This document shows positions 11,743 to 46,249 of a stretch of DNA of 64,000 nucleotides, one piece after another. This DNA is from Citrifermentans bemidjiense Bem. GTDB taxonomy: Bacteria > Desulfobacterota > Desulfuromonadia > Geobacterales > Geobacteraceae. The stretch spans positions 2,045,501-2,109,500 of the forward strand of contig NC_011146.1 of the NCBI RefSeq assembly GCF_000020725.1, read 5' to 3'. Position 1 is the stretch's first letter. Every line of letters begins with the position of its first letter. The position numbers were made by a program, and so were the translations under genes. Under the pieces are notes generated by a model. That model saw only the letters and a list, made by a program, of their open reading frames with translations, was not told the origin of the DNA and made no database searches.

Positions 11743-11759
11743 CCGGCTCAGGGTGAGAC

Positions 11760-12816: not shown

Positions 12817-12843
12817 CAAGGCCCCTGACGCGGAGGAAGCGAT

Positions 12844-14849: not shown

Positions 14850-14850
14850 C

Positions 14851-17051: not shown

Positions 17052-17066
17052 GAGAAGGCCGCAGCT

Positions 17067-18218: not shown

Positions 18219-18225
18219 GTGGAAC

Positions 18226-23681: not shown

Positions 23682-24779
23682 GTGCAAAACGTCTTGTTTT
23701 ATTACTCGTCCCAGCAGGTGCACACCGGCTCGCCCAAGGTGCTGGCGCGCCTCATCGAGGGGCTGGACCGTACCCTTTACGTGCCTTATTTCATCGCCGG
23801 GCGTCCCGGCGACCTGTCGCGCAGGCTCGCTGCAAACGGAACCGTGATCCTTGAAGGGGAGGTGGGGCAGGTTTCCGCCACTACCCTCTTGAACAACACG
23901 GCGAACCTTTTCCGGCTGACGAGGCTTTTAAAGCGCAACAAGATCTCTCTGGTGCACATAAACCAGCTGGGGTGGAACCTCGATCTCGCCGTCGCAGCGA
24001 GGCTCCTCTCCATCCCGGTCGTGTTCCACATCCACAACCACGAGCAGATCAACCTGCGCAACCTCGACTGCCGGCTGGGATCGCGCTACCTGTTCGTTTC
24101 CCGGGCGCTCGCCGAGCAGTGCGACGCCTACCGTTTCCACCCGGTGAAGACGCAGGTGCTCTACAACCCCATCGACATCGACAGGTTCCGCGCCGGGCGC
24201 CCAATCCGGCAGGAGCTGAACCTCCCTCAAAATGCACCGGTGGTGGGGACCGTGGCCCAGATCTGCCACCGGAAGGGGATCGACATCATCGTCAACTGCG
24301 CGCAGAAGGTGCTCTCCTCGGTACCCGAGGCGGTATTCGTCATCGCCGGACCGGACGGGCTCGGGGAGGAGCGCTTCGCGCAGGAGCTCCGCGCGGAGAT
24401 TGCCGGCAATGGACTCTCGGAAAAAATCCGCCTCGTCGGCCCGCGCGACGACATCGAGGACTTCATGGCCAGCCTGGACCTCTTCTTTCTCCCCACCCGT
24501 GCGGAGCCGTTCGGCATGGTCTTTGTGGAGGCCATGGCGGCGGGGGTCCCCGTCGTGGCCAGCAACGTCGGGGGGATCCCCGAGATCATACCTGCGGAGG
24601 AGTTCGGCATCCTCTTGGACTCGGAATCCCCGCGTTATCCGGAAGTTATCGCGGGGCTCCTGGTCGACGCCGACCGGAGAAGGCGCATGGCGGCAGCTGC
24701 CTTCGAGCGCGCGCGGGACAACTTTTCACACTCGATCTTCAACCGGAAGATCGGGTCGCTCTACCGTGAACTGATCTGA
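23682..24779 (+). CDS. Family 4 glycosyltransferase
   Basis: 365 aa GT-B enzyme. The N-terminus QNVLFYYSSQQVHTGSPKVL is the acceptor-side fold. The donor half has VVGTVAQICHRKGIDIIVNC, IRLVGPRDDIEDFMASLDLF and LPTRAEPFGMVFVEAMAAGV. The start is GTG at 23682, after a weak CGGAGTAAGC ribosome site. It probably adds a sugar to the repeat unit. It is separated from its neighbours by short gaps of 48 and 64 bases, without recognisable terminators. Confidence 0.88.
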   Translation: MQNVLFYYSSQQVHTGSPKVLARLIEGLDRTLYVPYFIAGRPGDLSRRLAANGTVILEGEVGQVSATTLLNNTANLFRLTRLLKRNKISLVHINQLGWNLDLAVAARLLSIPVVFHIHNHEQINLRNLDCRLGSRYLFVSRALAEQCDAYRFHPVKTQVLYNPIDIDRFRAGRPIRQELNLPQNAPVVGTVAQICHRKGIDIIVNCAQKVLSSVPEAVFVIAGPDGLGEERFAQELRAEIAGNGLSEKIRLVGPRDDIEDFMASLDLFFLPTRAEPFGMVFVEAMAAGVPVVASNVGGIPEIIPAEEFGILLDSESPRYPEVIAGLLVDADRRRRMAAAAFERARDNFSHSIFNRKIGSLYRELI

Positions 24780-24843
24780 TCCAGCGACCGGGGGACTAAG
24801 CCGCTGCACCGTAGGCGGATAGGGTGGGCCGCCGAGAGGTCAT

Positions 24844-26169
24844 ATGAGGAACGAGATCGCGAAAAACCTGCTGTTTTACCCGGTGCACTACCTGAGAGGG
24901 GAGTACGTGGCCCCTTTGGTCCGTGAAGTCCAGGAGATCAACGCCGCTTCTTCGGAGCGGATAGCGTTGCATCAAGAAGAGGCCCTATGCCGGGTCATCG
25001 ATCGTGCGCTTTCTCTGGAGCTCTCCCTTTATCGTGACCTGCGCCGGCATCGAAAGCAGGTCCGTCCCGCCGAGGTGCTGCAGCTGCTGCAGGAGATGCC
25101 GCTGGTTTCCAAGGAGGCTATGCGGGCCGCGGTGAAAGAGGACCGCAGGAAAAAGGGAAGGGGGCTCGATTACCGCTCCACCAGTGGCTCGACCGGGATG
25201 CCCTTTCAGTTCTACAAGGACCGCCTGGCGACCGGGTACATGGACTCGGTCCAGTATGCGGCCAATGCTTGGTACGGCATCGACATGGGGGACCCGCAGG
25301 CCCGATTCTGGGGCATGCCGCTGGGCGCCAAGGGGGCCCTGGTCGCCAGGGTAAAGGACCTGCTGCGAAACCGCATCAGGTTCTCGGCCTTCGATCTGAG
25401 CCTGGAGGCGAAGGAGGCATTCTACGCCCGGCTGCGCGGCTTCGCCCCCAGCTACTTTTACGGCTACCCGAGCCTTATCGCCGAATTCTGCAGGTACGCG
25501 GCGCAGCAGGGGGTGGACCTGTCGGCGCTGCCGCTCAAGGCGGTGGTAGGTACCGGCGAGTACGTGTATCCCAGGGAAAGGGAGTTGATCTCGGCCGCGA
25601 CCGGCGCCCCCTTCGTGAGCGAATACGGCTGCACCGAGGTGGGGCTGATCGGGTTCGAATGCCGGCACGGCAGCATGCATCTCATGGCGTCGAACATCGT
25701 CCTCGAGATCATCAAGGACGGTAAAAGCGTCATAGATGAGGAGGGGGATGTCTACGTGACCGAACTGCACGCGAGCCACTTCCCCTTTATCAGGTACGGG
25801 CTGGGCGACCGCGGCAAAATCGTCGGCAAGCCCTGCAGCTGCGGCCGCAACCTCCCGGTGTTCGAGGTCATCTCCGGCAGGAAGGACGATTACGTGATCA
25901 CCCCCGAGGGGGGGAAGATCTACGACGCCATCTTCGCCTACGTGCTGAAAAAAGGGGTGGACCAGTTCAAGGCGGTGCAGACGGCGGCAGACCGTGTCGA
26001 GATAACCCTGGTCGCCAACGCGGAGTATTCCGAGGAACTGGAGAGACGCTACCTGCAGGAACTGAGTAACCGTATCTCGCCCTGCATGCAGATCGCCATC
26101 AGCAGGGTAGATCGGATCGAGCGCAGCAAGTCCGGCAAACTGAGATATTTCGAAAGGAAAATCAACTAG
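24844..26169 (+). CDS. CapK/phenylacetate-CoA-ligase-like adenylate-forming enzyme
   Basis: 441 aa member of the ANL superfamily. It shows the AMP-binding loop YRSTSGSTGMPFQFYKDR near residue 110, GYPSLIAEFCRYAAQQ, VSEYGCTEVGLIGFEC near residue 260 and FIRYGLGDRGKIVG near residue 315. A C-terminal lid follows (RSKSGKLRYFERKI). Relatives in capsule loci (CapK type) are thought to activate an acid for transfer to the polysaccharide or a sugar nucleotide. The acid is unknown. An ATP-grasp ligase two genes downstream could act in the same modification. Confidence 0.85.
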   Translation: MRNEIAKNLLFYPVHYLRGEYVAPLVREVQEINAASSERIALHQEEALCRVIDRALSLELSLYRDLRRHRKQVRPAEVLQLLQEMPLVSKEAMRAAVKEDRRKKGRGLDYRSTSGSTGMPFQFYKDRLATGYMDSVQYAANAWYGIDMGDPQARFWGMPLGAKGALVARVKDLLRNRIRFSAFDLSLEAKEAFYARLRGFAPSYFYGYPSLIAEFCRYAAQQGVDLSALPLKAVVGTGEYVYPRERELISAATGAPFVSEYGCTEVGLIGFECRHGSMHLMASNIVLEIIKDGKSVIDEEGDVYVTELHASHFPFIRYGLGDRGKIVGKPCSCGRNLPVFEVISGRKDDYVITPEGGKIYDAIFAYVLKKGVDQFKAVQTAADRVEITLVANAEYSEELERRYLQELSNRISPCMQIAISRVDRIERSKSGKLRYFERKIN

Positions 26170-26207
26170 CGCTCGCCGAGGCTTGCGAGCTGCGCAATGG
26201 GATAGCC

Positions 26208-27155
26208 ATGGAAGTTCTTTTCGTATCAGTGATAATACCGGTCTTCAATGCGCACAGAACCCTCGACTCCTGCCTGCAGAGCATCCTCGCCTGCGACTAC
26301 CTTCGCGACAGTTTCGAGGTGATCGTCGTCGACAACTGCTCAACCGACGACTCCGCCGAGATAGCCCGGCGCTACCCGGTGACGCTGACCACGAAAATCG
26401 GGGGGACCATCAGTTCGGTCAGAAACCACGGCGTAAGCCTCGCGCGGGGCTCGGTCCTGGGTTTTGTCGACAGCGACTGCATCGTCGCTTCCGACTGGCT
26501 TTCGGAGGTGGTCAAGGTCCTGCAGCTTCAAGGCGCCGGGGCGGCGGGTTCGGGTTACCTGGTCCCGGAGCGCTACACCTGGGTCGAGAAGGCCTGGCTC
26601 TACGAGCGGGGGGGGGGAACCTACCAGACCGGGCTGGTCCCCGGCGGGAACTGCGCGTTCAAGGCGGAGTTGTTCCAAGCGATCGGCGGCTTCGACGAGG
26701 GGCTCACCACCGGCGAGGACTCCGACATCTGCAGGCGCGTGATCGAGGCGGGATACAAGGTGATCGGCTCGGGTTCCATACGCTGCGTGCACCTGGGCAA
26801 CTCGAAGACGCTCAGGCAGTTCGCCAGGAAGGAGTTCTGGTACGGCATCGACATGGTGAAGGACCTGCGGGTCACCTCGTTCGACGGCACCTTTTTCATG
26901 ACTGCCGTTTTTCTGCTCGGCTTCGCGTCTTTCACCGCGGCGCTGCTGCTGACCCTGGCGACGGGGAGGCAGTCGCCGCTTTTGTACTCCCCACTGGCCA
27001 TGCTCGCCGTAAGCGCCGTCTGCTCGGGATACCGGGTCCGGCGGTCGAGGAAATACCGGTATTACTTTCACCTGGTCGTTTTGTACTTCCTTTACTTTTG
27101 CTCCCGTTCCTGCGCCGTGGTGAGCTCGGTGCTGAAGAGCTCGAGAACCACGTGA
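26208..27155 (+). CDS. Family 2 glycosyltransferase with C-terminal membrane segments
   Basis: 315 aa. The GT-A domain has VSVIIPVFNAHRTLDSC, VIVVDNCSTDDSAEIA and the metal-binding FVDSDCIVA motif, then GGFDEGLTTGEDSDICRR with the acid pair. Two to three hydrophobic segments follow from about residue 225. A ten-G tract (26608-26617) inside the coding sequence is in frame here (YERGGGTYQT) but is a potential slippage site. Architecture parallels the GT2 at 2260-3195. Confidence 0.9.
   Translation: MEVLFVSVIIPVFNAHRTLDSCLQSILACDYLRDSFEVIVVDNCSTDDSAEIARRYPVTLTTKIGGTISSVRNHGVSLARGSVLGFVDSDCIVASDWLSEVVKVLQLQGAGAAGSGYLVPERYTWVEKAWLYERGGGTYQTGLVPGGNCAFKAELFQAIGGFDEGLTTGEDSDICRRVIEAGYKVIGSGSIRCVHLGNSKTLRQFARKEFWYGIDMVKDLRVTSFDGTFFMTAVFLLGFASFTAALLLTLATGRQSPLLYSPLAMLAVSAVCSGYRVRRSRKYRYYFHLVVLYFLYFCSRSCAVVSSVLKSSRTT
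26608..26617 (+). repeat. Ten-G homopolymer in a GT2 gene
   Basis: In frame here (ERGGGT); a one-base change would truncate the glycosyltransferase at about residue 140. Confidence 0.8.
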
Positions 27156-27231
27156 AGCATGCACCTCAAACCGGGCGCCCTCCCGGATCTTTTGCCTGCT
27201 ACGGATCTTTCCGTAGCCCGAGGTCGTTTTT

Positions 27232-28401
27232 ATGAATCTGATAGAAAAAAGCGCAAGCGGCAAGGTCGATGCGATCTACACCAAGGCGATAGCTTCCGCC
27301 TCGCAACTCGGCGGGACCCTTACCCCGCATCTCAGGAGGTTCATCCGTTTCCTCGCGCTCCCCTACTACTTCTTTTGCGGCATCGATTGGAGGATCTGCC
27401 GCAAGAACAAGCTCGCCGTGTGCCTCGACCTCCTGTACATCTTCTTCGTCCTGAAGCACTACCCCGACCACTACTTCTACTGCCGCCTGTGGGAAAAGAA
27501 GAGGGAGGAATGGAAGTATTACTTCGGCTCGATATACGACGCGTACCAGCGGCGGCAGTTCAAGAAGTTCATCTACAGCAGGGAAAACTTCGTGCTCTTC
27601 GCCAACAAGCAGATCTGCTACCAGTTGTGCCACGACGCCGGTTTCCCGCTTCCCGCGCAGTTCGCTACGCTCTACCCCCACGAGGACTACCGCTCCGGGC
27701 TCGCCGCTTGTGTCGCGCAAATGCCCCCCGGGGAGCGGCTCATCGTAAAGGCCGTGGACGGGATGGGAGGGAAGGGGATCGTCGTCGCCTTCCGCGACGG
27801 CGACCGGATCAAGGTCAGACGCAACGAGGAGGTCTGCGACCTCTCCGAGTTCGAGCTCAACCACCCCGCCGTGGTGCAGCAATACGTCAGGCAGCACCAT
27901 CTGGTGCAGCAGTTTTCCATCACCACCAACACCATCAGGTTGTCCACGATGTTGAAGTCGGACTATTCAGGCGTGGTGCTGGTCTGCGCCATCATGAGGT
28001 TCGGTGTCGGCGGCTCCGTGGTCGATAACCTTTGTTCCGGCGGGCTTGCCGTTGGGGTCGACCTCGTCACCGGCAGGCTCGGCGAATTCGCCGTCGGTTT
28101 TGCCGCGACGCTGCACGCGCGGCACCCCGACTCCGGGATGCCGTTCAAGGACTTCCAGGTACCTTACTGGCCGGAGGTGGTCGACTTGGCCAAAAGGGTG
28201 CAGCAGCACTTCCACTACCACAAGTTACTGGGCCTCGACTTTTGCATCACGGAGGAAGGGCCGCTCTTGATAGAGATCAACGAGGAGCAGGACCTGGGCG
28301 GAACCGAGATGGTCTACGGTCCCGTCCTGAAAAACCGGGAGGTGCTGGAGCAGTTCAAGGCCTACAACCTACTCGTCAGCAGGGTGCAGCAGACAATGTG
28401 A
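27232..28401 (+). CDS. ATP-grasp protein of the sugar-transfer-associated type
   Basis: 389 aa. After an N-terminal region of about 110 residues with a YFFCGIDWRICRKNKLAVCL segment there is an ATP-grasp fold: SRENFVLFANKQICYQLCHD, ERLIVKAVDGMGGKGIVVAF (ATP lid), and the metal-binding end LLGLDFCITEEGPLLIEINE followed by EQDLGGTEMVYGP. This arrangement fits the 'sugar-transfer associated ATP-grasp' group (PF14397). Such enzymes join a carboxylate to an amine; here probably an amino acid or acid decoration of the EPS. It lies 40 bases before the first large secreted paralogue. Confidence 0.82.
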   Translation: MNLIEKSASGKVDAIYTKAIASASQLGGTLTPHLRRFIRFLALPYYFFCGIDWRICRKNKLAVCLDLLYIFFVLKHYPDHYFYCRLWEKKREEWKYYFGSIYDAYQRRQFKKFIYSRENFVLFANKQICYQLCHDAGFPLPAQFATLYPHEDYRSGLAACVAQMPPGERLIVKAVDGMGGKGIVVAFRDGDRIKVRRNEEVCDLSEFELNHPAVVQQYVRQHHLVQQFSITTNTIRLSTMLKSDYSGVVLVCAIMRFGVGGSVVDNLCSGGLAVGVDLVTGRLGEFAVGFAATLHARHPDSGMPFKDFQVPYWPEVVDLAKRVQQHFHYHKLLGLDFCITEEGPLLIEINEEQDLGGTEMVYGPVLKNREVLEQFKAYNLLVSRVQQTM

Positions 28402-28441: not shown

Positions 28442-30526
28442 ATGTTACGGAGACTAAAGAACGTCATCATTGCGGCAGCTCTCGTCCTGTTCGGGGTGCA
28501 GGGGGCAGGGGCCGCCATCCTGTTCAGCGAGGGGTTCGACACCCTGGCCAACTGGAGCCCGCCCCAGGGAGCCTCGGGCGAAGCCTGCGTCAGGGGGCAG
28601 ATCTGCACGACCGCTATCCCCAACGGCTTTTACGATTACCGCGTCGCCGGGACGGAAGCCTGCAGCAACCTGGACGGCAACCACAACACGTTGAACATAA
28701 ACGAGCTCAACGCCAGGGGAGGGTCCGGCAAGGCGGTCACGGTATGGAACGAGCCGTGCTACAGCAGAAGCGGCAGCTGGGGGTCCGACGGGCTGCTCGG
28801 GGTCGACTTCGCGCCCCAGGACGAGGTATACGTGCGCTACTGGATCAAGTTCCAGCCTGACTGGAGGTGGGACGGCGACGGCTCCGCCGGCGGGCGCGCG
28901 CTGGGCGCTGCCAACACCAGCCCGATGCAGAAATTCATGCACCTGTCGCACATGAACCCGAGCATCTCCCCGATCTGGGACTTCTTCAGCGGGGTGCAGA
29001 ACAAGCCGCGCTTTACCCCTCAGCTCGCTAAGTTCTCCGGCGGCGCGATGCGCATCCAGTTCAACCTGCCCCATTCGCCACTGACGCCCACAAGGGATAG
29101 TTCGGCCTCATTCACCCTCAACGTTTACTTAGGAGCGGCACCGCTGGACTGGAGTGTGCCGGGGACTGGCGGACTTCCGACGCCTCCCGGCGACGGGCAG
29201 TGGCACAGCTTCGAATTCTACGCGAAGATGAACAGCGCAGGGGGGATCGCCAACGGGATCTCCAAGGTGTGGTACGACGGCGCCCTGGTGAGCACTGCCT
29301 CCAACGTGGTATGGATCCCGACAGGCGACGACCCCGCCCTCTGGCGCTGGAACCATGCCTGGATCGGCGGCAACAACTCCAACACCTACCTTCCCGCCAA
29401 CGAGCAGTGGTACGCCGTCGACGACTTCGTGGTCAGTACCCATTACAGCGGGCCGCCTCCGCCTCCCGATACGCTCAGGGCCGAAGGGATAAGCACCTCG
29501 TCGATACGCCTCACCTGGCAAAGCGGCAGCAACGGTGCCACCTACTTGGTGGACGGCTACCGCATCTACTACGGGACCGACCCCGCCAATCTCAACGGCT
29601 CGGTCACCGTCGCAGCCTCGCAAAGGGAGGCCGTGGTGACTTCCCTTGCCGCCGGCACCAGGTACTATTTCGCTGCCACCGCGTTCAAGCAGGAAGCAAG
29701 CGACGCCAACGAGAATGAAAGCCTGCGCAGCGCCTCGGCCAACGCCGTCACGGTCGACCTGGTCCGGCCGGACATCACACTGGCCCCCGTCACCTCCCCC
29801 ACGCGGGTGGCCAGTCAAACCCTCTCCGGGACCGTCGCGGACGCCGGCGGCATCGCCTCGGTGCTGGTCAAGGTCGGCGCCGCGGCGCCTGTCGCCGCGA
29901 CAGTCACAGGGAACCGCTGGAGCTGCACCGTTCACAATTTGACCGAAGGGGCAAACAGCATCGTGGCGACCGCACAGGACCTCTCCGGCAACGAGTCCAC
30001 GGCAAGCGGCACCATCATGCTGGATACCCATCCTCCCGTGGTCACCGTGTCTGCCTTCATTACGCCGACCATATTCACCTCGCAGACCATATCGGGGACC
30101 GTGACCGACGTGGGCGGGATGGTCGATTCGGTTTCGGTGCAGGTGGGGAACGGCCAGAGCCAGGCCGCCCAGGTGAACGGCTACGTCTGGAGCTTTCTGG
30201 TGAAAAACCTTCAGCCCGGTGTCGCCACCGCGATCACCGTGTCGGCCCGCGACACCGCAGGAAACGAGAGCAGCCAGAACTCCGCGCTGATGTCCTCGAT
30301 AGGGGTCCTCAAAGCGGGGGATCTATCCGGAGATAACTCGGTGGGGGTGGATGACGCCCAGCTTGCCATGCAGATGGGGGTAGGGATGAAAAAGCCCGAT
30401 GCCGGCCAACTGCAGCGCGGTGACCTGGCACCGATGGTCGGGGGAATACCGCAGCCGGACGGGGTGATTGACACAGGAGATGCCTTGTTGATACTGGGCA
30501 TCGTTACCGGAATGGTGAGGTTTTAA
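28442..30526 (+). CDS. Secreted concanavalin-like/Fn3/Ig protein with a C-terminal dockerin-like module
   Basis: 694 aa. The signal peptide is about 1-24 (VLFGVQGAGA|A). Residues 25-330 form a domain shared with the two downstream paralogues (NHNTLNIN, WNEPCYSRSGSWGSDGLLG, RYWIKFQPDWRWDGDGS, QNKPRFTPQLAKF), apparently a concanavalin/jelly-roll fold. An Fn3 domain follows (SIRLTWQSGSNGATYLVDGY), then two Ig-like domains. The last 65 residues contain two calcium-loop-like repeats (GDLSGDNSVGVDDAQLAM and GVIDTGDALLILGIVTGMV), a dockerin-like pair. ATG 28442 is preferred over 28424 because GGAGA sits seven bases upstream. No riboswitch precedes it. Likely a matrix protein or glycan-active enzyme of unknown substrate. 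Confidence 0.8.
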   Translation: MLRRLKNVIIAAALVLFGVQGAGAAILFSEGFDTLANWSPPQGASGEACVRGQICTTAIPNGFYDYRVAGTEACSNLDGNHNTLNINELNARGGSGKAVTVWNEPCYSRSGSWGSDGLLGVDFAPQDEVYVRYWIKFQPDWRWDGDGSAGGRALGAANTSPMQKFMHLSHMNPSISPIWDFFSGVQNKPRFTPQLAKFSGGAMRIQFNLPHSPLTPTRDSSASFTLNVYLGAAPLDWSVPGTGGLPTPPGDGQWHSFEFYAKMNSAGGIANGISKVWYDGALVSTASNVVWIPTGDDPALWRWNHAWIGGNNSNTYLPANEQWYAVDDFVVSTHYSGPPPPPDTLRAEGISTSSIRLTWQSGSNGATYLVDGYRIYYGTDPANLNGSVTVAASQREAVVTSLAAGTRYYFAATAFKQEASDANENESLRSASANAVTVDLVRPDITLAPVTSPTRVASQTLSGTVADAGGIASVLVKVGAAAPVAATVTGNRWSCTVHNLTEGANSIVATAQDLSGNESTASGTIMLDTHPPVVTVSAFITPTIFTSQTISGTVTDVGGMVDSVSVQVGNGQSQAAQVNGYVWSFLVKNLQPGVATAITVSARDTAGNESSQNSALMSSIGVLKAGDLSGDNSVGVDDAQLAMQMGVGMKKPDAGQLQRGDLAPMVGGIPQPDGVIDTGDALLILGIVTGMVRF

Positions 30527-31245: not shown

Positions 31246-31332
31246 GAATAAAGCAACAACGACAATACTAAACCACCTGCGAAGGTGGGACGGAAAGCCC
31301 ACGGGTCTCCCTGAGACAGCCGGGTCGCCGAT
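31246..31332 (+). ncRNA. GEMM-I riboswitch, cyclic AMP-GMP (3',3'-cGAMP) variant
   Basis: The core reads AATACTAAACC, then a CCACCT-GCGA-AGGTGG hairpin with a GNRA loop, GGACGGAAAGCCCACGGG, and a second hairpin GTCTC-CCT-GAGAC. These are the landmarks of the GEMM-I aptamer. Aligning the AAACC to the Vibrio Vc2 c-di-GMP aptamer from memory puts an A (31267) where c-di-GMP binders have G20; this change marks the cyclic AMP-GMP class described from Geobacter. The 3' part of the aptamer forms one arm of the terminator that follows, so ligand binding should favour read-through into the gene at 31406. I saw no convincing promoter between 31050 and 31245. Confidence 0.88.
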
Positions 31333-31380
31333 TCTACGCGATGGAACCCCCATCGTAGACCGGCGACCCGGCTTTTTTTT
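31318..31380 (+). terminator. Riboswitch-controlled intrinsic terminator
   Basis: A long hairpin pairs AGCCGGGTCGCCG (31318-31330) with CGGCGACCCGGCT (31361-31373). It is extended by an inner stem (TCTACG.../...CGTAGA) and followed by a T run to 31380. Its left arm overlaps the riboswitch aptamer, making the two structures mutually exclusive. Confidence 0.92.
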
Positions 31381-31405
31381 GTATCGGGGATCAAAGGAGA
31401 GTTAA

Positions 31406-33889
31406 ATGAAGAAGTTGAAGGCAATAACGGCAACAGCGTTAGGAGTCCTGATGTACACGAGTGTCGCCTCCGCGGCAGTACTGTTCTCAGAGGATTTCAA
31501 CGCGCAACCAGACTGGAGCCCTTCACAGGGGACCTCCGGTGCTACCTGCATTCCCGGGCAAAACTGCGCCACTCCCATCCCGACCGGTTTTTACGACTAC
31601 CGCCTGGCCGGCACGGAAGCTTGCAGCAACCTCGACGGCAAGCACAACACCCTGAACATAAACGGCCTGCACCCGAGAGGGACGGGGAAGAGCTTCATGA
31701 TGTGGAACGAGCCCTGCTATAGCAGAAGCGGCAGCTGGGGCTCCGATGGCCTCCTCGGGATCGATTTCGCCCCTCAAAACGAGGTGTACGTTAGGTACTG
31801 GATCCAGTTCCAGCCCGACTGGAGGTGGGATGGCGACGGTTCGGTCGGCGGGCGCGCCGTGGGTACGGCGACCACGAGCCCGATGGAAAAGTTCATGCAC
31901 ATCTCCCACCTGAACACCGGGAACACGAACTTCTGGGACTTCTTCAGCGGCACCCAGAACAAACCCCGCTTCACCCCGCAGCTCGCCAAGTTCGGCGGCG
32001 GCAGCTATCGGCTCCAGTTCAACCTCCCTCATTCCCCTCTGACTGCGGCACGTGATAGTTCTGCCTCGTTCACTACTAATGTATTCCTTGGCGCTGCCCC
32101 CCTCGACATGAACGTACCGGGCCCCGGTGGTTTGCCGGCAGCTCCCCGGGACGGCAAGTGGCACTGCTTCGAGTTCTACGTCAAGCTGAACAGCGCAGGG
32201 GGGGTGGCCGACGGCGTCTCGAAGGTCTGGTACGATGGCGCCCTGGTCGGCTCGACCACTAACGCCGTATGGATTCCTTTAGGCGATGATCCGGCCCAGT
32301 GGAAGTGGAACCACGCCTGGCTCGGCGGCAACAACGCCAACCTCTACCTGCCCGCCAACGAGCAGTGGTACGCCATAGACGACGTTGTGGTGAGCACCAC
32401 CTACAGCGGCCCGCCGGCGCAGCCGGGGAGCGTCACCGCCACCGCCAGCGCGGCGAACACCGTGAGCCTGCGCTGGAGCCCCGGCAGCAACGGGGTCCCG
32501 TTCTCCCTGAACGGCTACCGGATTTACTACGGCAAGGACGCAACCAACCTGAACATGAAAGTGGACGTGGGGAACGTGCAGCAGTACAGCATCTCCTCCC
32601 TCGACCCCTCGACCAAGTACTACTTCGCGGTCTCCGCCTACAACAAGGGGAGCTACGACAGTAATGACAACGAAGGGATGCCCTCGGTAACGGCAAGCGC
32701 GACCACCGTTTCTAGCAGTACCACTACCACGACCACTGCAGATGCCGTCGCGCCGGTAGCTTCCATCTCCTCGCCGGCTACCGGCTCCACCGTGAGCGGC
32801 AACGTCACTATCAACGTGGCAGCCAGCGACAACGTGGCGGTCAGCAAGGTAGAGCTGTACCTGAACGGCTCCATCTTCGGCGTGGTGGGGTCGGCCCCCT
32901 ACACCCTGAGCTGGAATACGGCCAATAACCCCAACGCCACCTACACCCTGACCGCGAAGGCCTACGACGCAGCCGGCAACGTGGGGCAGGCTTCGAGCTC
33001 GGTGACCGTGAAAAACGCAGTCGCAGTAACCGACGCTTCGGCCCCTGTGATCAGCTCCTTCACCATGCCCGCGTCCGCCACATCGCTTACCGTTCCGGTT
33101 ACCGCGTTCGCCGCCACCGACGACGTCGGCGTCACCGGCTACCAGATCACCGAGAGCGCGACCGCTCCCGCGGCGGGCGCCACCACCTGGAAAGCAACCG
33201 CGCCGACCTCCTGCACCTTCTCGGCAGCAGGTATCCGCACCGCTTACGCCTGGTGCAAGGACGCCTCCGGCAAGGTATCGGCAGCAAAAACCGCCCAGGT
33301 CAACATCACCACCGCTACCACCACGACCGGGGACACGACCGCCCCGGTGGTCAGCATCGCCTCGCCGGTGACCGGTTCCACGGTCAAGGGGGCAGTGACT
33401 GTATCCGCCAACGCCACCGACAACGTCGGTGTGAAGAAGGCCGAGTTCTACGTGAACGGGGTGCTCAAGCTGACCTCCACTACCGCGCCCTACAGCGTCA
33501 CCTGGGGGACCACCAACTACCCTAACGGCTCCAACAGCGTCACCGTAAAGGCGTACGACGCAGCCGGCAACGTCGGCCAGGCAACTTCGACCGTCACCAT
33601 CATGAACGGCGACACTACTGCCCCGAAGGTTTCCATAACCTCCCCGACCTCCGGGTCCACCGCCAAGGGGGTAGTGACAGTATCCGCTAACGTCACCGAC
33701 AACGTCGGCGTAAAAAAGGTCGAGTTCTACGTGAACGGCGTGCTCAAGCTGACCTCCACCGCGGCTCCCTACACCGTCACCTGGGGCACCACGAATTACC
33801 CGAACGGCTCCAACAGCGTGACCATCAAGGGGTATGACGCGGCCGGCAACGTCGGCCAGGCCACAACGACTGTAACCGTGGCGAATTGA
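31406..33889 (+). CDS. Secreted concanavalin-like/Fn3 protein with Ig-like repeats, under riboswitch control
   Basis: 827 aa. Signal peptide about 1-23 (VLMYTSVASA|A). The concanavalin-like domain (about 24-335) is closely similar to those at 28442 and 34599. An Fn3 domain (VSLRWSPGSNGVPFSLNGYR) follows at about 340-435. Then come three Ig-like domains of the Big_9 kind (SISSPATGSTVSGNVTINVA and similar). A different module, SFTMPASATSLTVPVTAFAA, sits after the first of them. No PEP-CTERM, LPXTG or dockerin end is present, so it is presumably released or matrix-bound. ATG 31406 has an AAAGGAGAG ribosome site. Transcription is gated by the cyclic AMP-GMP riboswitch upstream. Confidence 0.85.
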   Translation: MKKLKAITATALGVLMYTSVASAAVLFSEDFNAQPDWSPSQGTSGATCIPGQNCATPIPTGFYDYRLAGTEACSNLDGKHNTLNINGLHPRGTGKSFMMWNEPCYSRSGSWGSDGLLGIDFAPQNEVYVRYWIQFQPDWRWDGDGSVGGRAVGTATTSPMEKFMHISHLNTGNTNFWDFFSGTQNKPRFTPQLAKFGGGSYRLQFNLPHSPLTAARDSSASFTTNVFLGAAPLDMNVPGPGGLPAAPRDGKWHCFEFYVKLNSAGGVADGVSKVWYDGALVGSTTNAVWIPLGDDPAQWKWNHAWLGGNNANLYLPANEQWYAIDDVVVSTTYSGPPAQPGSVTATASAANTVSLRWSPGSNGVPFSLNGYRIYYGKDATNLNMKVDVGNVQQYSISSLDPSTKYYFAVSAYNKGSYDSNDNEGMPSVTASATTVSSSTTTTTTADAVAPVASISSPATGSTVSGNVTINVAASDNVAVSKVELYLNGSIFGVVGSAPYTLSWNTANNPNATYTLTAKAYDAAGNVGQASSSVTVKNAVAVTDASAPVISSFTMPASATSLTVPVTAFAATDDVGVTGYQITESATAPAAGATTWKATAPTSCTFSAAGIRTAYAWCKDASGKVSAAKTAQVNITTATTTTGDTTAPVVSIASPVTGSTVKGAVTVSANATDNVGVKKAEFYVNGVLKLTSTTAPYSVTWGTTNYPNGSNSVTVKAYDAAGNVGQATSTVTIMNGDTTAPKVSITSPTSGSTAKGVVTVSANVTDNVGVKKVEFYVNGVLKLTSTAAPYTVTWGTTNYPNGSNSVTIKGYDAAGNVGQATTTVTVAN

Positions 33890-33990
33890 GAAGACAGCCC
33901 CGGCCATAAAGGGCTCCGTGGCAAGCAAGTCCGTGACCAGGCTGTATTGAGCTAGCTGATACCGCCTTGTATGTGGAAGCAGCAGCAAAA

Positions 33991-34025
33991 AAGGAAGGGA
34001 GCCTTAGCGCTCCCTTCCTTTTTTT
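33991..34025 (+). terminator. Intrinsic terminator after the 827-aa protein gene
   Basis: A perfect 12-bp stem, AAGGAAGGGAGC (33991-34002) with GCTCCCTTCCTT (34009-34020), a six-base loop and a T run to 34025. Confidence 0.9.
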
Positions 34026-34332
34026 AGTTTGAGGTTGCGCCTCGCGTCAACATCTCCCGCCGCTTTGCCGGCTCTTTCCGTCGAAAAAATAGGGGTTTGA
34101 CGATTTTATTTTCTTCCTGCGATCCAGGAAACGCCAAATAGCCAGCCCGCTGCTCAGGACTTGGACAGTTGTTCAACTGCTTCCAAACAAACGGCAGACT
34201 CAGTAAATACGGGCACTTGAGGTAACCGGCGCCTGGCGCTGTGCAGGTTTCATGCAGATGTGAAGCTCTTGTTTTTCAACTGCTTCCGTGAAAAAAACGC
34301 TAATTACAGTGACTTATGTGTGCTGCAGACCT
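34026..34332 (+). other. Long intergenic region with a palindrome and a 13-bp direct repeat
   Basis: There is no coding potential here. A perfect palindrome CAGTTG-TT-CAACTG lies at 34167-34180. The 13-mer TTCAACTGCTTCC, which overlaps its right half, occurs again at 34275-34287. Both copies lie upstream of the sigma-54 promoter (about 150 and 60 bases), where an enhancer-binding activator would be expected to bind. Confidence 0.55.
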
Positions 34333-34349
34333 TTGGCACTGCAGTTGCG
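34333..34349 (+). promoter_or_regulatory. Sigma-54 (-24/-12) promoter for the riboswitch/1096-aa protein transcript
   Basis: TTGGCAC-TGCAG-TTGC matches the sigma-54 consensus TGGCAC-N5-TTGC at every defined position and keeps the GG-N10-GC spacing. Transcription would start about 12 bases further on, giving a leader that carries the riboswitch. Confidence 0.8.
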
Positions 34350-34445
34350 ATGGCACAGGCTAAAGGTAATGACTGTGTACAGGATGGAGGTTGCGATGAG
34401 CAACAAGCACGGAAGCGGTTAGTAGAGATCAGTTAAAACTAAATA

Positions 34446-34524
34446 GCAACAACGACAATACTAAACCATCCGTGAGGATGGGACGGAAAGCCCACGGGTC
34501 TCCCTGAGACAGCCGGGTCGCCGA
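34446..34524 (+). ncRNA. Second GEMM-I riboswitch, cyclic AMP-GMP variant
   Basis: Nearly the same core as the first copy: AATACTAAACC, a CCATCC-GTGA-GGATGG hairpin with a GNRA loop, GGACGGAAAGCCCACGGG and the GTCTC-CCT-GAGAC hairpin. The stem bases differ from the first copy in a compensatory way, supporting a conserved structure. The discriminating base is again A (34460). It controls the gene at 34599 through the terminator that follows. Confidence 0.88.
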
Positions 34525-34573
34525 ATCTAACAGATGGTTTTTTTACATCATAGAGAAGCGACCCGGTTTTTTT
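34513..34573 (+). terminator. Riboswitch-controlled intrinsic terminator
   Basis: CCGGGTCGC (34513-34521), within the aptamer's 3' end, pairs with GCGACCCGG (34558-34566), followed by a T run to 34573. Same architecture as the first riboswitch. Confidence 0.9.
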
Positions 34574-34598: not shown

Positions 34599-37500
34599 AT
34601 GAAGAAGCGTAACGCAATACTCACCGCAACCTTAGGAATCCTCTTGTACACGAACGTCGCCTCTGCCGCAGTGTTGTTCTCCGACGATTTCGATTCCCGC
34701 AGCGATTGGAGCCCGGCACAGGGGGCTTCCGGTGCTACCTGCATCCCAGGGCAGAACTGCGCCACGCCGATCCCGGATGGCTACTACGATTACCGCGTGG
34801 CGGGAACCGAGGCCTGCAGCAACACCGACGGCAACCACAATACCCTGAACATCAATGGTCAGCACCCCAGGGGGGGAGCCGGCAAGAGCTTCATGATGTG
34901 GAACGAGCCCTGCTACAGCAGGAGCGGCAGCTGGGGATCCGACGGCCTCCTGGGCATCGATTTCGCCCCGCAAAACGAGGTGTACGTCAGGTATTGGGTC
35001 CAGTTCCAGCCGGACTGGAGGTGGAATGGCGACGGCTCCATCGATGGGCTGGCCTTGGGTACGGCAAACCCGAGCCCGATGCAAAAGTTCATGCACATCT
35101 CCCACCTGGACCCGACGAACCCAAACCTCTGGGATTTCTTCAGCGGCACCCAAAACAAGCCTCGCTTCACCCCGCAGCTCGCCAAATTCGGCGGCGGCAG
35201 CTATCGGCTTCAGTTCAACCTCCCGCATTCCCCTTTGACTGCTGCACGTGATAGTTCCGCCTCTTTCACTACTAATGTATACCTCGGCGCTGCCCCTCTC
35301 GACATGAACGTACCGGGCCCCGCCGGTTTGCCGGCAGCTCCGCGCGACGGCGGGTGGCACAGCTTCGAGTTCTACGTCAAGCTGAACAGCGCAGGCGGGG
35401 TCGCCGACGGTATCTCCAAGGTCTGGTACGACGGCGCCCTGGTCGAATCGACCACGAACGTGGTGTGGGTTCCCTTAGGTGACGACCCGGCGCAGTGGAA
35501 GTGGAATCACGCCTGGCTGGGCGGCAACAACGCCAACCTCTACCTTCCGGCCAACGAGCAGTGGTACGCCATAGACGACGTGGTGGTGAGCACCACCTAC
35601 AGCGGTCCTCCGGCGCAGCCGTTGAGCCTGAGCGCCGCAGCCGTCGCGGCAAACACCGTGAGCCTGAGCTGGAGCGCCGGTAGCAACGGGGTCGCGTATA
35701 ACGTAGACGGCTACCGCATCTACTACGGCAAGGACGCCTCCAACTTGGACATGAAACTGGACGCGGGGAACGTGCAGCAATACGACATCTCTTCCCTCGA
35801 CCCCTCCACCAAGTACTACTTCGCGGTCTCCGCCTACAGCAAGGGGAGCTACGACAGCAACGACAACGAAGGTATGCGCTCGGTGACGGCAAGCGCGACC
35901 ACCGCTTCCGGTGCTGCCATCGCGGTTGCCGATGCGGTTGCACCGGTGGATTCCATCTCCTCGCCGGCTAACGGCTCCACCGTGAGCGGCAACGTGACGG
36001 TGAACGTGGCAGCCAGCGACAACGTGGCGGTCAGCAAGGTAGAGCTGTACCTGAACGGTTCCATCTTCGGCGTGGTGGGTTCGGCTCCCTACACCCTGAG
36101 CTGGAATACGGCCAACAACCCCAATGCTACCTACACCCTGACCGCGAAAGCGTATGACGCAGCCGGTAACGTGGGGCAGACAACGAGCTCCGTGGTCGTG
36201 AAAAACGCAGTCGCAGTCCTCGATGCTTCGGCCCCGGTGATCGGCTCCTTCACCATGCCCGCTTCCGCCACCTCGCTGACCGTTCCGGTTAGTGCCTTTG
36301 CCGCCAGCGACGACATCGGCGTCACCGGCTACCAGATCACCGAGAACGCGACGGCCCCGGCGGCAGACGCCACCACCTGGAAAACAAGCGCACCGACCAG
36401 CTTCACCTTCTCCGCAGCAGGTTCCCGCACCGCCTACGCCTGGTGCAAGGACGCCTCCGGCAAGGTATCGGCAGCCAAGACCGCCCTGGTCAGCATCACC
36501 ATCGCCACTGCCGACACGGCCGCCCCGGTGGTCGCCTTCACCTCTCCGGTGGACGGTTCCAAGGTCAAGGGGACGGTAACCGTGTCCGCCAACATCACCG
36601 ACAACGTCGCCGTGAGCAAGGTCGAGTACTACGTGAACGGCCTGCTCAAGCTGACTTCCACCTCCGCGCCCTACTCGGTTCCCTGGGGCACCACCAACTA
36701 CCCCGACGGCTCCAACACCATCATGATCAAGGCCTATGACGCAGCCGGCAACGTCGGTCAGTCCAGCGTCACGGTCATCGTCGCCAACGACGCGATCGCG
36801 CCGTCGGTCTCCATCGTCTCCCCGGTGGCAGGCTCCACTATCGGCGGCACGGTATCGGTATCGGCAAACGCCAGCGACAACCTGGCGGTTGAGAGGGTAG
36901 AGCTCTACCTGAACGGCGCGCTGGTGGCGACCTCCACCGCGGCTCCCTACGGCTTCAGCTGGAACACCGCGAATGCAGCAAACGGCTCCTACACGGTGAG
37001 CGCCAAGGCTTATGACGCAGCCGGCAATGTCGGCCAGGCCTCGGCAACGGTCAGCGTATTCAACGACACCACCGCCCCCTCGGTCGCCATCTCCTCCCCG
37101 GTGGCAGGTTCCACGGTGAACGGTACCGTCAGCCTGTACGCCAATGCCAGCGACAACGTTGGGGTGACCAAGGTCGAGTTCTACCTGGACGGCGCCCTGC
37201 AGGCGACCTCCACCGCGGCTCCCTACGGCTTCAGCTGGAACACCGCGAATGCAGCAAACGGCTCCTACACGGTGAGCGCCAAGGCTTATGACGCAGCCGG
37301 CAATGTCGGCCAGGCCTCGGCAACGGTCAGCGTATTCAACGACACCACCGCCCCCTCGGTCGCCATCTCCTCACCGGTGGCAGGTTCCACGGTGAACGGT
37401 ACCGTCAACCTGTACGCCAATGCCAGCGACAACGTTGGGGTGACCAAGGTCGAGTTCTACCTGGACGGCGCGCTGCAGGCGACCTCCACCGCGGCTCCCT

Positions 37501-37889
37501 ATGGTTTCAGCTGGAACACGACGACCGCAGCCAGCGGGACCCACACCCTGAGCGCCAAGGCCTACGACGCGTCCGGGAACGTCGGCCAGTCCGCCAGCGT
37601 AAGCGTCAACGTCGTGAACGACTCGGTGGCCCCGGTGATCAGCGTGAGCGCCCCGACCAAGGACTACCTAACCTCCAGCAAGCTCCCCATCTCCGCCTCC
37701 GCGACGGACAACGTGGCAGTCGTCAAGATGGAAGCTTACGTGGACAACGCCCTGGTGATATCCACCAACAACTCCTCTTTCAGCGTCAGCACCAACATTG
37801 CGAAGGGGGTCCACACCGTCACCATCAAGGCCTACGACGCCTCCAACAACGTCGCAGTGTTCAGCAAGACGGTCAACAGGTTCTTCTAA
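34599..37889 (+). CDS. Large secreted concanavalin-like/Fn3 protein with many Ig-like repeats
   Basis: 1096 aa. Signal peptide about 1-23 (ILLYTNVASA|A). Then come the shared concanavalin-like domain, an Fn3 domain, one Ig-like domain, the SFTMPASATSLTVPVSAFAA module, and five further Ig-like domains of about 92 residues (e.g. AISSPVAGSTVNGTVSLYAN). The last one is divergent and ends in NRFF. Two of the repeats are almost identical at the DNA level. The start is ATG 34599, with AAAGGAGATAG upstream, rather than the more upstream in-frame codon inside the terminator. Expression should need sigma-54, an activator and cyclic AMP-GMP. It looks like an extended stalk carrying a glycan-binding head. 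Confidence 0.87.
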   Translation: MKKRNAILTATLGILLYTNVASAAVLFSDDFDSRSDWSPAQGASGATCIPGQNCATPIPDGYYDYRVAGTEACSNTDGNHNTLNINGQHPRGGAGKSFMMWNEPCYSRSGSWGSDGLLGIDFAPQNEVYVRYWVQFQPDWRWNGDGSIDGLALGTANPSPMQKFMHISHLDPTNPNLWDFFSGTQNKPRFTPQLAKFGGGSYRLQFNLPHSPLTAARDSSASFTTNVYLGAAPLDMNVPGPAGLPAAPRDGGWHSFEFYVKLNSAGGVADGISKVWYDGALVESTTNVVWVPLGDDPAQWKWNHAWLGGNNANLYLPANEQWYAIDDVVVSTTYSGPPAQPLSLSAAAVAANTVSLSWSAGSNGVAYNVDGYRIYYGKDASNLDMKLDAGNVQQYDISSLDPSTKYYFAVSAYSKGSYDSNDNEGMRSVTASATTASGAAIAVADAVAPVDSISSPANGSTVSGNVTVNVAASDNVAVSKVELYLNGSIFGVVGSAPYTLSWNTANNPNATYTLTAKAYDAAGNVGQTTSSVVVKNAVAVLDASAPVIGSFTMPASATSLTVPVSAFAASDDIGVTGYQITENATAPAADATTWKTSAPTSFTFSAAGSRTAYAWCKDASGKVSAAKTALVSITIATADTAAPVVAFTSPVDGSKVKGTVTVSANITDNVAVSKVEYYVNGLLKLTSTSAPYSVPWGTTNYPDGSNTIMIKAYDAAGNVGQSSVTVIVANDAIAPSVSIVSPVAGSTIGGTVSVSANASDNLAVERVELYLNGALVATSTAAPYGFSWNTANAANGSYTVSAKAYDAAGNVGQASATVSVFNDTTAPSVAISSPVAGSTVNGTVSLYANASDNVGVTKVEFYLDGALQATSTAAPYGFSWNTANAANGSYTVSAKAYDAAGNVGQASATVSVFNDTTAPSVAISSPVAGSTVNGTVNLYANASDNVGVTKVEFYLDGALQATSTAAPYGFSWNTTTAASGTHTLSAKAYDASGNVGQSASVSVNVVNDSVAPVISVSAPTKDYLTSSKLPISASATDNVAVVKMEAYVDNALVISTNNSSFSVSTNIAKGVHTVTIKAYDASNNVAVFSKTVNRFF
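36927..37510 (+). repeat. Near-identical 276-bp tandem repeats encoding Ig-like domains
   Basis: The marker CCTCCACCGCGGCTCCCTA recurs at 36931 and 37207, and (with one change at its 3' end) at 37483, exactly 276 bases (92 codons) apart. The intervening sequence is almost unchanged between copies, pointing to recent duplication or gene conversion. Confidence 0.9.
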
Positions 37890-38106: not shown

Positions 38107-38760
38107 TTACGCTCTGCGGCGCCATAAGCACATGCCAGCGAGTCCAGCCCCAAGAAGAAAGATGGTGGAAGGCTCCGGTACGGCATCCACCCTGACATTG
38201 TCCAGGGCGGCTCCCCATGCCTCGTCAGGGTTCAACGAGTTGGTGATGTCGCCGAAGAAGAGTTCCGCGCTGTCGCTGCTCGCTACGAAATCGAAATATT
38301 GGGTAACCCATCCCATGTTCTGATGGGTGTTGCCTGCTTGCTCGAAGGTGAAGGAATGGGTGGTGAATATCTCGCCCGTCGACACGCTGACCAACGATTT
38401 GTTATAGGGTCTGTCGGGGTTGCCGGCCATGTCGAACTGCACGCGGTATGTCTGCCCAGCTACGGTGTCGAACGCGGTCCCTACTATCAATCCGTGCTGG
38501 TAGTTGCCGGCCAGATCGATACTTTTGGTCCCTTCGCTCGCTTGCCAGTAGGTGTTGATCCAGTCGATGGAGCCATCGACGACACTCCAGCCGTCGATGA
38601 TGTTCGTGCCGGCACCAACTGTGACAAATGGTGTCGATCCGGGATAGAAACCGTCCTCGAAGCTGCCGTTCGCTATCAAGTTGGCCTGGGCTATGCCAAT
38701 ACTAGCCAAAAACACGATAGACGTGATTGCTAAGGTGACGGCCTTTCTCAAAGTATTCAT
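38107..38760 (-). CDS. PEP-CTERM-anchored secreted protein (choice-of-anchor-like domain)
   Basis: 217 aa. Signal peptide about 1-26 (ASIGIAQA|N). The mature domain begins NLIANGSFEDGFYPGSTPFV, and its pattern (IIDGWSVVDGSIDWI, DLAGNYQHGLIVGTAF, GAALDNVRVDAVPEP) resembles choice-of-anchor/DUF642-like beta-sandwich domains. The C-terminus is a textbook sorting signal: VPEPS, a hydrophobic stretch (TIFLLGAGLAGMCLW) and RRRA. It is therefore a substrate for the exosortase at 41267. A sigma-54 promoter precedes it, fitting control by the PrsK/PrsR pair. Ribosome site AGGAGAG lies just upstream of the ATG. Confidence 0.93.
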   Translation of the reverse strand: MNTLRKAVTLAITSIVFLASIGIAQANLIANGSFEDGFYPGSTPFVTVGAGTNIIDGWSVVDGSIDWINTYWQASEGTKSIDLAGNYQHGLIVGTAFDTVAGQTYRVQFDMAGNPDRPYNKSLVSVSTGEIFTTHSFTFEQAGNTHQNMGWVTQYFDFVASSDSAELFFGDITNSLNPDEAWGAALDNVRVDAVPEPSTIFLLGAGLAGMCLWRRRA

Positions 38761-40257: not shown

Positions 40258-40974
40258 CTAGTGCCTGGCCCGCTGCTGGTGGAAGGGGTGGTTCAGTAAA
40301 ATGGCCTTGTTCTGCAGCACGGAGATAACCCCGGACCTCTCCAGGGTCCTCAAGACCCGGCTCATGGTCTCGCGGGTGACGGACGCGTAGCTCGCCATCT
40401 GCTGGTGGGTCATCTTCACGTCGATGATGATGCCGCGGTCGTCCCGCACGCCGTAGAGTTCCCCCAGGCGGTCCAGAAGCGAGATAACGCGGTCCTGCGC
40501 GTTCTCGGCGTTGAAGGAGAGTATCCTGATCATCTCCCAGGAGTCCCTGAGCCTGCCGCAGAGCAGTTCGATGATCTTGCGGCGGATCCCCTCGTTGCTC
40601 ATCAGGTGCTTTTCGAAGTCGTCCTTGTGCAGAAGGCCTATCACCGACTCCTCGTGGGCGATGATGGTGGCGGGCGAGGTCTTGCCGTCCAGAAGCGACA
40701 TCTCTCCGAAGAAGTCGTTCTTCTTGTGGATGGTGATGATCTGCTCCTTGCCGTCTTCGTTCAGTTTGACCACCCGCACCTTCCCCGAATAGATCAGGTA
40801 CATGTAGTTGCTGGTGTCTTCCTCGTAAAGGACTATCTGTTCCTTATCGTAGTCCTGCTTCCGGAAGAGCCTTTCCACCAGTTCGATTTCGCCGGGCTCG
40901 AGGGTGGAAAAAAAGGGGATGCTGCTGATGATGCGCGCCTCTGCTTTTTGTTTTTGCCCTGCCTGCCGAGTCAT
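40258..40974 (-). CDS. Crp/Fnr-family transcription regulator
   Basis: 238 aa. An N-terminal cyclic-nucleotide-binding-type domain (FFSTLEPGEIELVERLFRKQ, YSGKVRVVKLNEDGKEQIIT, DFFGEMSLLDGKTSPATIIA) is followed by a dimerisation helix. The C-terminal winged helix has the recognition segment MTHQQMASYASVTRETMSRV. No FNR-type cysteines are seen, so an oxygen-sensing cluster is unlikely. It is divergently transcribed from the exosortase gene and is a candidate regulator of the locus. The effector is unknown. Confidence 0.9.
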   Translation of the reverse strand: MTRQAGQKQKAEARIISSIPFFSTLEPGEIELVERLFRKQDYDKEQIVLYEEDTSNYMYLIYSGKVRVVKLNEDGKEQIITIHKKNDFFGEMSLLDGKTSPATIIAHEESVIGLLHKDDFEKHLMSNEGIRRKIIELLCGRLRDSWEMIRILSFNAENAQDRVISLLDRLGELYGVRDDRGIIIDVKMTHQQMASYASVTRETMSRVLRTLERSGVISVLQNKAILLNHPFHQQRARH

Positions 40975-46239: not shown

Positions 46240-46249
46240 GGGGGTGGTA

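Follow-up and report, generated by a model that had tools for sequence, protein, structure and literature searches.

GEMM riboswitches next to genes for fn3 proteins have been reported before in Geobacter and its relatives. The 2010 genome paper on G. bemidjiensis places such switches near Gbem_1796, Gbem_1798 and Gbem_1799, proposes an outer-surface location for the encoded fn3 proteins and calls their triplication recent (PMC2996986); the association of switch and gene at this locus is already in that paper and is not new. The GSU1945 transcript carries a GEMM-Ib switch (PMC8835794) and its product is annotated as an fn3 protein (PMC10599522), while KN400_1971 encodes an fn3 protein with an upstream GEMM switch (PMC13194489). 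In the literature at hand, Geobacter signalling by cyclic GMP-AMP (cGAMP) is treated mainly through cytochromes, pili and polysaccharide genes. Here we analyse a 64-kb stretch of the Citrifermentans bemidjiense Bem genome (C1:2045501-2109500 of a single contig of 4,615,150 bases), hereafter the window, which holds two GEMM-I aptamers ahead of two paralogous proteins of 827 and 1096 amino acids (aa), and a third, 700-aa paralogue that has no switch (Table 1). By gene order, the genes at 28442, 31406 and 34599 would be Gbem_1796, Gbem_1798 and Gbem_1799, and we refer to them as 1796, 1798 and 1799.

Taken together, the evidence makes it probable that both aptamers belong to cGAMP-activated GEMM-Ib ON switches on two paralogous, putatively secreted proteins associated with an exopolysaccharide (EPS), and that this arrangement is an old trait of the lineage. 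Mechanistically, cGAMP bound during transcription would retain the 3' strand (GCCGGG...) within the aptamer. In the ligand-free state, the same strand would pair with a downstream copy and form a terminator, giving an ON switch by antitermination. In this way the switches would activate a pair of secreted-type paralogues, encoded where an XrtA/PEP-CTERM-type EPS locus ends on its 3' side; these proteins would most likely bind or shape that exopolysaccharide.

Both aptamers are recovered by the Rfam model RF01051 over its full length, positions 1-87 of 87, with E-values of 3.3e-6 (aptamer 1) and 9.8e-7 (aptamer 2) and scores above the gathering score of 35 bits, which places them in GEMM-I. Besides these two, the 64-kb window gave no RNA match at gathering level in Rfam. 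An in-house model, R1, scores them at 93.1 and 96.3 bits, both being part of its alignment. The A residues at 31267 and 34460 each fall on RF01051 model position 11, as in GEMM-Ib switches. According to our own alignment, this position would be the ligand-selecting nucleotide 20 of Vc2; G11 of Cd1 is reported to correspond to G20 of Vc2 (PMC9262584). Stem P2 differs between the two aptamers in two pairs, both compensatory. Over a set of 20 aptamers (19 distinct rows; 14 from this genome and six from related loci in three other genomes), standard pairing accounts for 94.7% of 323 cells and two-sided change is seen in 7 of 17 pairs, values equalled in none of 500 shuffles, with the pairing taken from the structure of the Rfam model itself, which biases towards pairing.

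In each unit, the aptamer's 3' strand doubles as the 5' arm of the terminator, and the two structures are therefore mutually exclusive. The full layout of the pilM type (a terminator on the aptamer 3' strand, a T run, a position upstream of the gene) is present in both units. The leader of aptamer 1 with its terminator folds at a minimum free energy of -58.2 kcal/mol (z -6.34, matched by none of 200 shuffles) and that of aptamer 2 at -45.2 kcal/mol (z -4.35, matched by 1 of 200). We folded 19 leaders, picking the T run for best pairing and leaving the G-type aptamer at 2736160 outside the set: GCCGGG pairs with the terminator arm over six bases in 16 leaders, over five in one and over four in one, and the odd one out, G018_1872, lacks a T run to define a terminator. 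A putative terminator also lies between the two gated units, at 33993-34026, and unit 2 may therefore have a promoter of its own. The consensus scan used for such elements returned 8 terminator-like sites against 9.5 expected; it limits loops to 8, and the switch terminators are not listed by it.

To follow the locus in relatives, the CRP-family gene at 40258 was taken as anchor; a relative of at least 67% identity is present in 17 of 19 same-genus genomes, this one included, the other two (G025 and G027) having one of only 41-43%. On the EPS side of the anchor, the stretch examined was the window itself, 48-60 kb in three genomes and 20 kb in the rest (for G012, 10.1 kb and a stretch on another contig). 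At least two GEMM-I aptamers are found at the anchored locus in 15 of the 17 genomes, and in 11 genomes two switches stand about 1.4 kb apart, each ahead of one gene. The selecting base is A in all 30 aptamers of one reading, and likewise in the aptamers of the window, L024 and L025. Each genome carries only 11-27 GEMM-I, so that the presence in 15 of them of two or more at the same locus, inside about 20 kb, cannot be put down to chance, and recurrence at the anchored locus rules out both chance and local duplication as the source of the pair. The gated proteins scanned (n = 31) all contain Big_7, and 28 contain fn3; five further A-type aptamers in the examined stretches precede other kinds of protein and stand outside this count. 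With the pair sitting on fn3/Ig proteins in most of the same-genus genomes examined, switch control of EPS-associated matrix proteins would therefore be an old lineage trait. Matrix-type proteins are thus likely to be a core output of cGAMP signalling, and the paralogues offer clear test genes.

G014 (Citrifermentans bremense R1) required separate treatment. Its main contig, C5, holds no GEMM-I in 51 kb and one long switchless paralogue (L026 5018-8335). A second contig, C68 (3,144 bases; L091 1-3144), carries in the gene order of the window the end of a 1796-like gene, a lipoprotein gene, three A-type aptamers and the start of another paralogue, and the view of G014 as a genome without a switch at the locus was dropped on this ground. 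The two stretches probably represent one locus that the assembly broke or collapsed, and the gene on C5 may have arisen by joining across repeats; if C68 belongs to the anchored locus, the count would become 16 of 17. In G027, one switch precedes a second paralogue outside the anchor.

A further GEMM-I type, which starts AATCGA and continues with AAACCAAACC, with A at the selecting position, was seen in five relatives, within their EPS islands or close by, where the genes that follow it encode concanavalin-like or beta-helix-like proteins as judged by eye. Rfam scans of 9 of 11 related loci gave GEMM-I in L068 only; the two left out of these scans, L062 and L065, are partly covered by L025 and L026. 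Outside the genus, the CRP-family anchor search mostly matched a 45-50% relative and its result was not used.

The third paralogue is a different case. No aptamer was found upstream of it with Rfam at E <= 1 or with model R1, which rules out a hidden one, and the whole window contains no third aptamer at E <= 1. An earlier note on this DNA had described this paralogue as lacking the switch, which stands, and had gone on to divide the family into signal-dependent and signal-independent members. Such a split holds in this genome and in G022, a genome with the same three genes; it may not be general, as like-tailed proteins of this locus are gated in 13 other genomes. In each of these 13, one gated protein at the locus has a C-terminus that matches the 700-aa tail; for the other gated type the figure is 0 of 12. 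The 1096-aa tail matches the C-terminus of this other type in 11 of 12, and the 827-aa tail in 0 of 12. The proteins compared were chosen for being gated, and the frequency of switchless ones cannot follow from such a set. The last 70 residues of the third paralogue have 87 matches, spread over all 19 genus genomes; many of the matches to this dockerin-like tail lie elsewhere, in very large frames, often of at least 1,500 aa. These comparisons show the tail to be a C-terminal module widespread among large surface-type proteins of the genus, and a tail match therefore does not prove identity with the third paralogue. A derived loss of its switch finds no backing here for the same two reasons, the comparison set being gated by choice and the tail a common module; this paralogue may have lost a switch or may never have had one.

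All three proteins have in common an N-domain of some 310 aa, followed by fn3 and then by Ig-like repeats, and their signal-peptide-like starts, read by eye, suggest secretion. For the second gated open reading frame (ORF), a start at the TTG at 34572 gives 1105 aa, as in the ORF list, and a start at the ATG at 34599 gives 1096 aa. An AlphaFold2 model of the N-domain (14 sequences, pTM 0.81) was compared by Foldseek, with matches to the PL36 alginate lyase Aly36B, TtX122 domains, PL14, Cip1 and PL20 (best E 3.6e-10; template-modelling score by target about 0.6; root-mean-square deviation 6-10 Å). The matches support a concanavalin-like jelly roll and suggest a carbohydrate partner, with no particular enzyme indicated. 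The earlier note had read from the letters two GEMM-I aptamers with compensatory stem differences, GNRA loops and an A at 31267 and 34460, each overlapping a strong terminator ahead of proteins of 827 and 1096 aa, and had called these large extracellular concanavalin/Ig proteins next to an EPS locus. The covariance-model scan, the two-pair change in P2, the GCGA and GUGA loops, the strand shared with each terminator and the ORFs all agree with that account, as do Pfam, Foldseek and the adjoining EPS genes for the proteins, their secretion being read by eye.

Relatives of the N-domain also turn up in a metagenome-assembled genome (MAG) labelled Bdellovibrionales, a label that may be wrong, at L060 5313-6254 (64%) and L061 1852-2778 (59%). 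By eye, both resemble lipoproteins and are some 464 aa long; no GEMM-I accompanies them at E <= 0.1.

Given these structural matches, the N-domain could instead act as a secreted polysaccharide lyase and trim the EPS of the cell that makes it, so that cGAMP would release cells from the matrix and not build it. Lyases of PL36, PL14 and PL20 are among the best Foldseek matches, and cGAMP has been proposed as a transient-attachment signal (PMC6456294). The 1096-aa protein also has a weak Pfam match to Polysacc_lyase_14 (PF21294; 19.5 bits, E 8.6e-4), which lies below the cut-off of 27 and does not place the protein in the family; neither the 827-aa nor the 700-aa paralogue matches PF21294 in Pfam. 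However, the Foldseek matches also include non-lyases (TtX122 domains of unknown function, Cip1, the calreticulin lectin domain and other jelly rolls), and the agreement given above is one of fold class. We consider a lyase unlikely, and a protein that binds or shapes the EPS remains our preferred reading.

As to the ligand, cGAMP is likely for both switches, on the strength of the selecting base and of kinship. The genome has 14 GEMM-I matches, 12 with A and two with G at the selecting position, and the bodies of the window aptamers are like those of its other A-type aptamers and unlike its canonical G-type one. An A-to-G change at nucleotide 20 switches the selectivity of Gmet_0970 from cGAMP to cyclic di-GMP (c-di-GMP) (PMC6456294). 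Among 22 GGDEF matches in the genome, two have a Ser at the position of GacA Ser348 together with a GGDEF-type motif, as in Hypr enzymes, and are candidate cGAMP synthases. In L050, the Ser lies nine residues past a conserved Asn, as in N339/S348 of GacA, and the motif is GGDEY. L059 has Ser and GGDDF, as in the second synthase, GSU1937 (PMC8835794), with Gly and not Asn nine residues before the Ser.

Several points weigh against cGAMP-activated switches on matrix proteins as set out above. In G026, no switch was found within the 20 kb of anchored locus examined; the consensus scan gave 2 promoter-like sites where 1.7 are expected, so that no sigma-70-type promoter stands out from chance; and the N-domain is modelled with moderate confidence only (pLDDT 73). 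The others concern the ligand. Both matching Rfam models carry c-di-GMP names (c-di-GMP-I for RF01051 and c-di-GMP-I-GGC for RF03167, the latter scoring a little higher, at 50.4 and 53.7 bits for aptamers 1 and 2, and below its family cut-off of 59), and the cGAMP assignment therefore rests on one base plus kinship. Moreover, nucleotide 20 is described as a selectivity factor and no hard filter (PMC9262584), and OmcST, a Geobacter GEMM-I switch, is reported to respond to cGAMP and c-di-GMP (PMC6456294). If the ligand in the cell were c-di-GMP, alone or together with cGAMP, the proteins would be coupled to ordinary biofilm signalling; the number of GGDEF proteins would suit this, and Geobacter GEMM switches have been described as c-di-GMP binding (PMC13194489). 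On the other hand, the A at the selecting position in both aptamers, their resemblance to the A-type group and the Hypr cyclase candidates speak for cGAMP, and we judge control by c-di-GMP, alone or beside cGAMP, to be improbable.

Two other leaders of the genome touch on the same question of ligand and target. At L029 4926-5189 (G000:C1:2178925-2179188, minus strand), a 510-aa protein with CxxCH-type repeats is preceded by tandem GEMM-I aptamers whose selecting base is A in the first and G in the second, and this one leader may therefore read cGAMP and c-di-GMP in series; in its second terminator, 5 of 6 tested bases are paired. At L032 4972-5048 (G000:C1:1255971-1256047), an A-type switch precedes a 518-aa protein with an fn3-like start, and next to it comes a 582-aa beta-helix-like protein (both by eye), a second matrix-type target.

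Comparison with G022 presents the proteins as mosaics. That genome has all three genes in the same order (open frames of 717, 815 and 1010 aa), with two switches before the second gene and one before the third; the former are seen as tandem aptamers about 390 nt apart ahead of an 810-aa paralogue (L024 8560-9101). The fn3 parts of the two genomes are 85% identical for 1796 (synonymous divergence, dS, 0.43) and 84% for 1798 (dS 0.47), and the C-terminal parts 75%, 77% and 75% for 1796, 1798 and 1799 (dS 0.73, 0.49 and 0.72). The fn3 of 1799 is exceptional, with 47% to its G022 counterpart and 80% to 1798. The N-domains, on the other hand, are most alike within a genome: 87% between the gated copies here and 93% in G022, 72-73% with the switchless copy, and 60-67% between the genomes, where synonymous sites are saturated (proportion of synonymous differences, pS, 0.74-0.89). 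Slow evolution is ruled out as the cause, since the sites are saturated between species in the N-domain and not in the fn3 or C-terminal parts. The gated pair of this genome is also 80% identical in fn3 and 76% in the C-terminal part; other C-termini within a genome reach only 28-51%. For the switchless copy, the sharing of the N-domain is read from protein identity and from nonsynonymous divergence (0.16-0.17 within and 0.28-0.32 between genomes in pairs that include it); its pS to the gated copies of the same genome is 0.58-0.62 here and 0.75-0.79 in G022, and any homogenisation or replacement was therefore long ago. Alignment of the final 160 nt of the leaders that precede the two gated G022 genes gives 159 identities in 159 positions, so that switch and N-domain were probably copied together.

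A recent triplication within the species, with the switch copied along with two of the genes, would suit the overall likeness of the gated pair and the 1799 fn3 that is nearer to 1798 than to G022, but it is very improbable, as G022 has the same three genes and their segments match across species (dS 0.43-0.73), which puts the triplication before the species split, while the other C-termini are far less alike and the N-domains are closest within genomes.

The same pattern extends beyond these two genomes. The N-domain pieces on C68 of G014 are 97% (end) and 73% (start) identical to the C5 N-domain and 43% (end) and 35% (start) to that of the window; the remainder of the 1796-like piece is 57% identical to 1796 and 33% to the C5 protein. 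The N-domains of the two G027 copies form a supported pair (100/100) in an N-domain tree that has long branches and 3 of 10 inner branches well supported. In all four genomes with at least two copies the N-domain type is common within the genome, and the fn3 and C-terminal parts, where compared, mostly match across genomes.

The EPS genes next to the paralogues differ along with the N-domain. One 23.7-kb alignment of this genome with G022 (85.9% nucleotide identity) ends at 23626; the products of 23682-28401 are 31-47% identical with no blastn match of at least 150 columns, and orthologous similarity resumes at 29184, near residue 247 in the first paralogue, and in the second at 32304, near residue 300. 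In G014, flanking genes mostly show 90-99% protein identity, and most EPS genes show 30-73% or are unmatched. This comparison suggests that the N-domain was exchanged together with the EPS cassette, by which we mean the four genes at 23682-28401 here and most EPS genes in G014. Hitch-hiking of neighbouring DNA could account for the N-domain of the first gene, not for the same replacement in the others. We offer, as a tentative hypothesis, that the N-domain recognises the strain's own EPS and is replaced with the cassette in all paralogues, the fn3/Ig scaffolds and cGAMP switches staying in place. It fits three genomes (this one, G022 and G014), gains from contig C68 and loses some ground because the switchless copies diverge at synonymous sites. 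If true, cGAMP would gate a strain-specific coupling of EPS and protein, a serotype-like matrix in which the protein partner is swapped to match the sugar. More generally, the mosaic proteins open a way to look for co-evolution between matrix proteins and their accompanying polysaccharide.

Among the EPS genes themselves, PrsK matches its NCBIfam model above the cut-off, while the EPS-specific names of the others fall below theirs. The 441-aa cassette protein has no Pfam match; we take it to be PaaK-like. The 172-aa lipoprotein-like protein between the first two paralogues has relatives in G022 (61% over 155 residues) and on G014 contig C68 (47% over 161).

Table 1. Positions of the switches, the paralogues and their neighbours in the window; the last row refers to other loci.
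Feature	Position	Strand	Remarks
GEMM-I aptamer 1	31257..31332	+	RF01051 47.6 bits; A at 31267; GNRA loop GCGA
Terminator 1	31318..31380	+	5' arm 31318-31330 (aptamer 3' strand); 3' arm 31361-31373; T run 31373-31380
827-aa protein, gated	31406..33889	+	Signal-peptide-like start; concanavalin-like N-domain; fn3 1e-9, Big_7 1.2e-52 (Pfam)
GEMM-I aptamer 2	34450..34525	+	RF01051 49.8 bits; A at 34460; GNRA loop GUGA
Terminator 2	34511..34573	+	5' arm 34511-34521 (aptamer 3' strand); 3' arm 34558-34568; T run 34567-34573
1096-aa protein, gated	34599..37889	+	Same family, more Big_7 repeats; Big_7 9.8e-113, fn3 1.1e-8 (Pfam)
Third paralogue, 700 aa, without switch	28442..30526	+	ORF open from 28424; fn3, Ig-like, dockerin-like tail (by eye); end of EPS gene run
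Inverted repeat, 10 bp, with T run	33993..34026	+	Between gated units; terminator by eye, not listed by consensus scan
Conserved part of XrtA/PEP-CTERM-type EPS locus	2760..23633	+	Glycosyltransferase family 2 (GT2), amidotransferase-like, O-ligase-like, family 4 (GT4) enzymes, flippase-like (NCBIfam/Pfam)
Variable EPS cassette, four genes	23682..28401	+	GT4 glycosyltransferase, 441-aa protein, GT2 glycosyltransferase, ATP-grasp_ST (Pfam)
Gly-rich lipoprotein-like protein, 172 aa	30531..31049	+	No Pfam match
PEP-CTERM protein with DUF642	38107..38760	-	Pfam
CRP-family regulator	40258..40974	-	Anchor for the locus in relatives
Exosortase EpsH	41267..42112	+	PF09721 7.8e-77
PrsK histidine kinase and sigma-54 response regulator, XrtA/PEP-CTERM system	44167..47614	+	TIGR02916 557.5 bits against cut-off 300; Pfam
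AATCGA-type aptamers of relatives	L081 10209-10283; L082 10307-10381; L084 9155-9229; L085 10463-10537; L088 16309-16383		

Set against the described systems, the genes analysed here agree with those of PMC2996986 in gene order, in fn3 and in the nearby GEMM, and are the same three by this measure. Beyond what the excerpts of that paper contain, we add the probable cGAMP type of the switches, which copies are gated, the terminators, the pair in other species and the mosaic; among the open-licence papers, in the parts available to us, no account of the recurrence of the pair, the switchless copy, the mosaic or a possible cassette exchange was found. GSU1945 and KN400_1971 resemble the window genes in combining, by annotation, fn3 with a GEMM switch. 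The lyases of PL36, PL14 and PL20 and the TtX122 domains share the concanavalin-like jelly-roll fold class of the N-domain at an identity of only 10-14%. Closest in mechanism is the pilM riboswitch of G. metallireducens, also a GEMM-I transcriptional ON switch in which aptamer and terminator exclude each other; it gates a pilus operon, whereas the window switches precede fn3/Ig proteins (PMC9262584). Gs1761 (pgcA) of G. sulfurreducens is likewise a terminator-based ON switch of the cGAMP regulon (PMC6456294, PMC8835794). Ligand and gacA dependence were measured for the G. sulfurreducens switches, whereas the switches of the window are described here from sequence.

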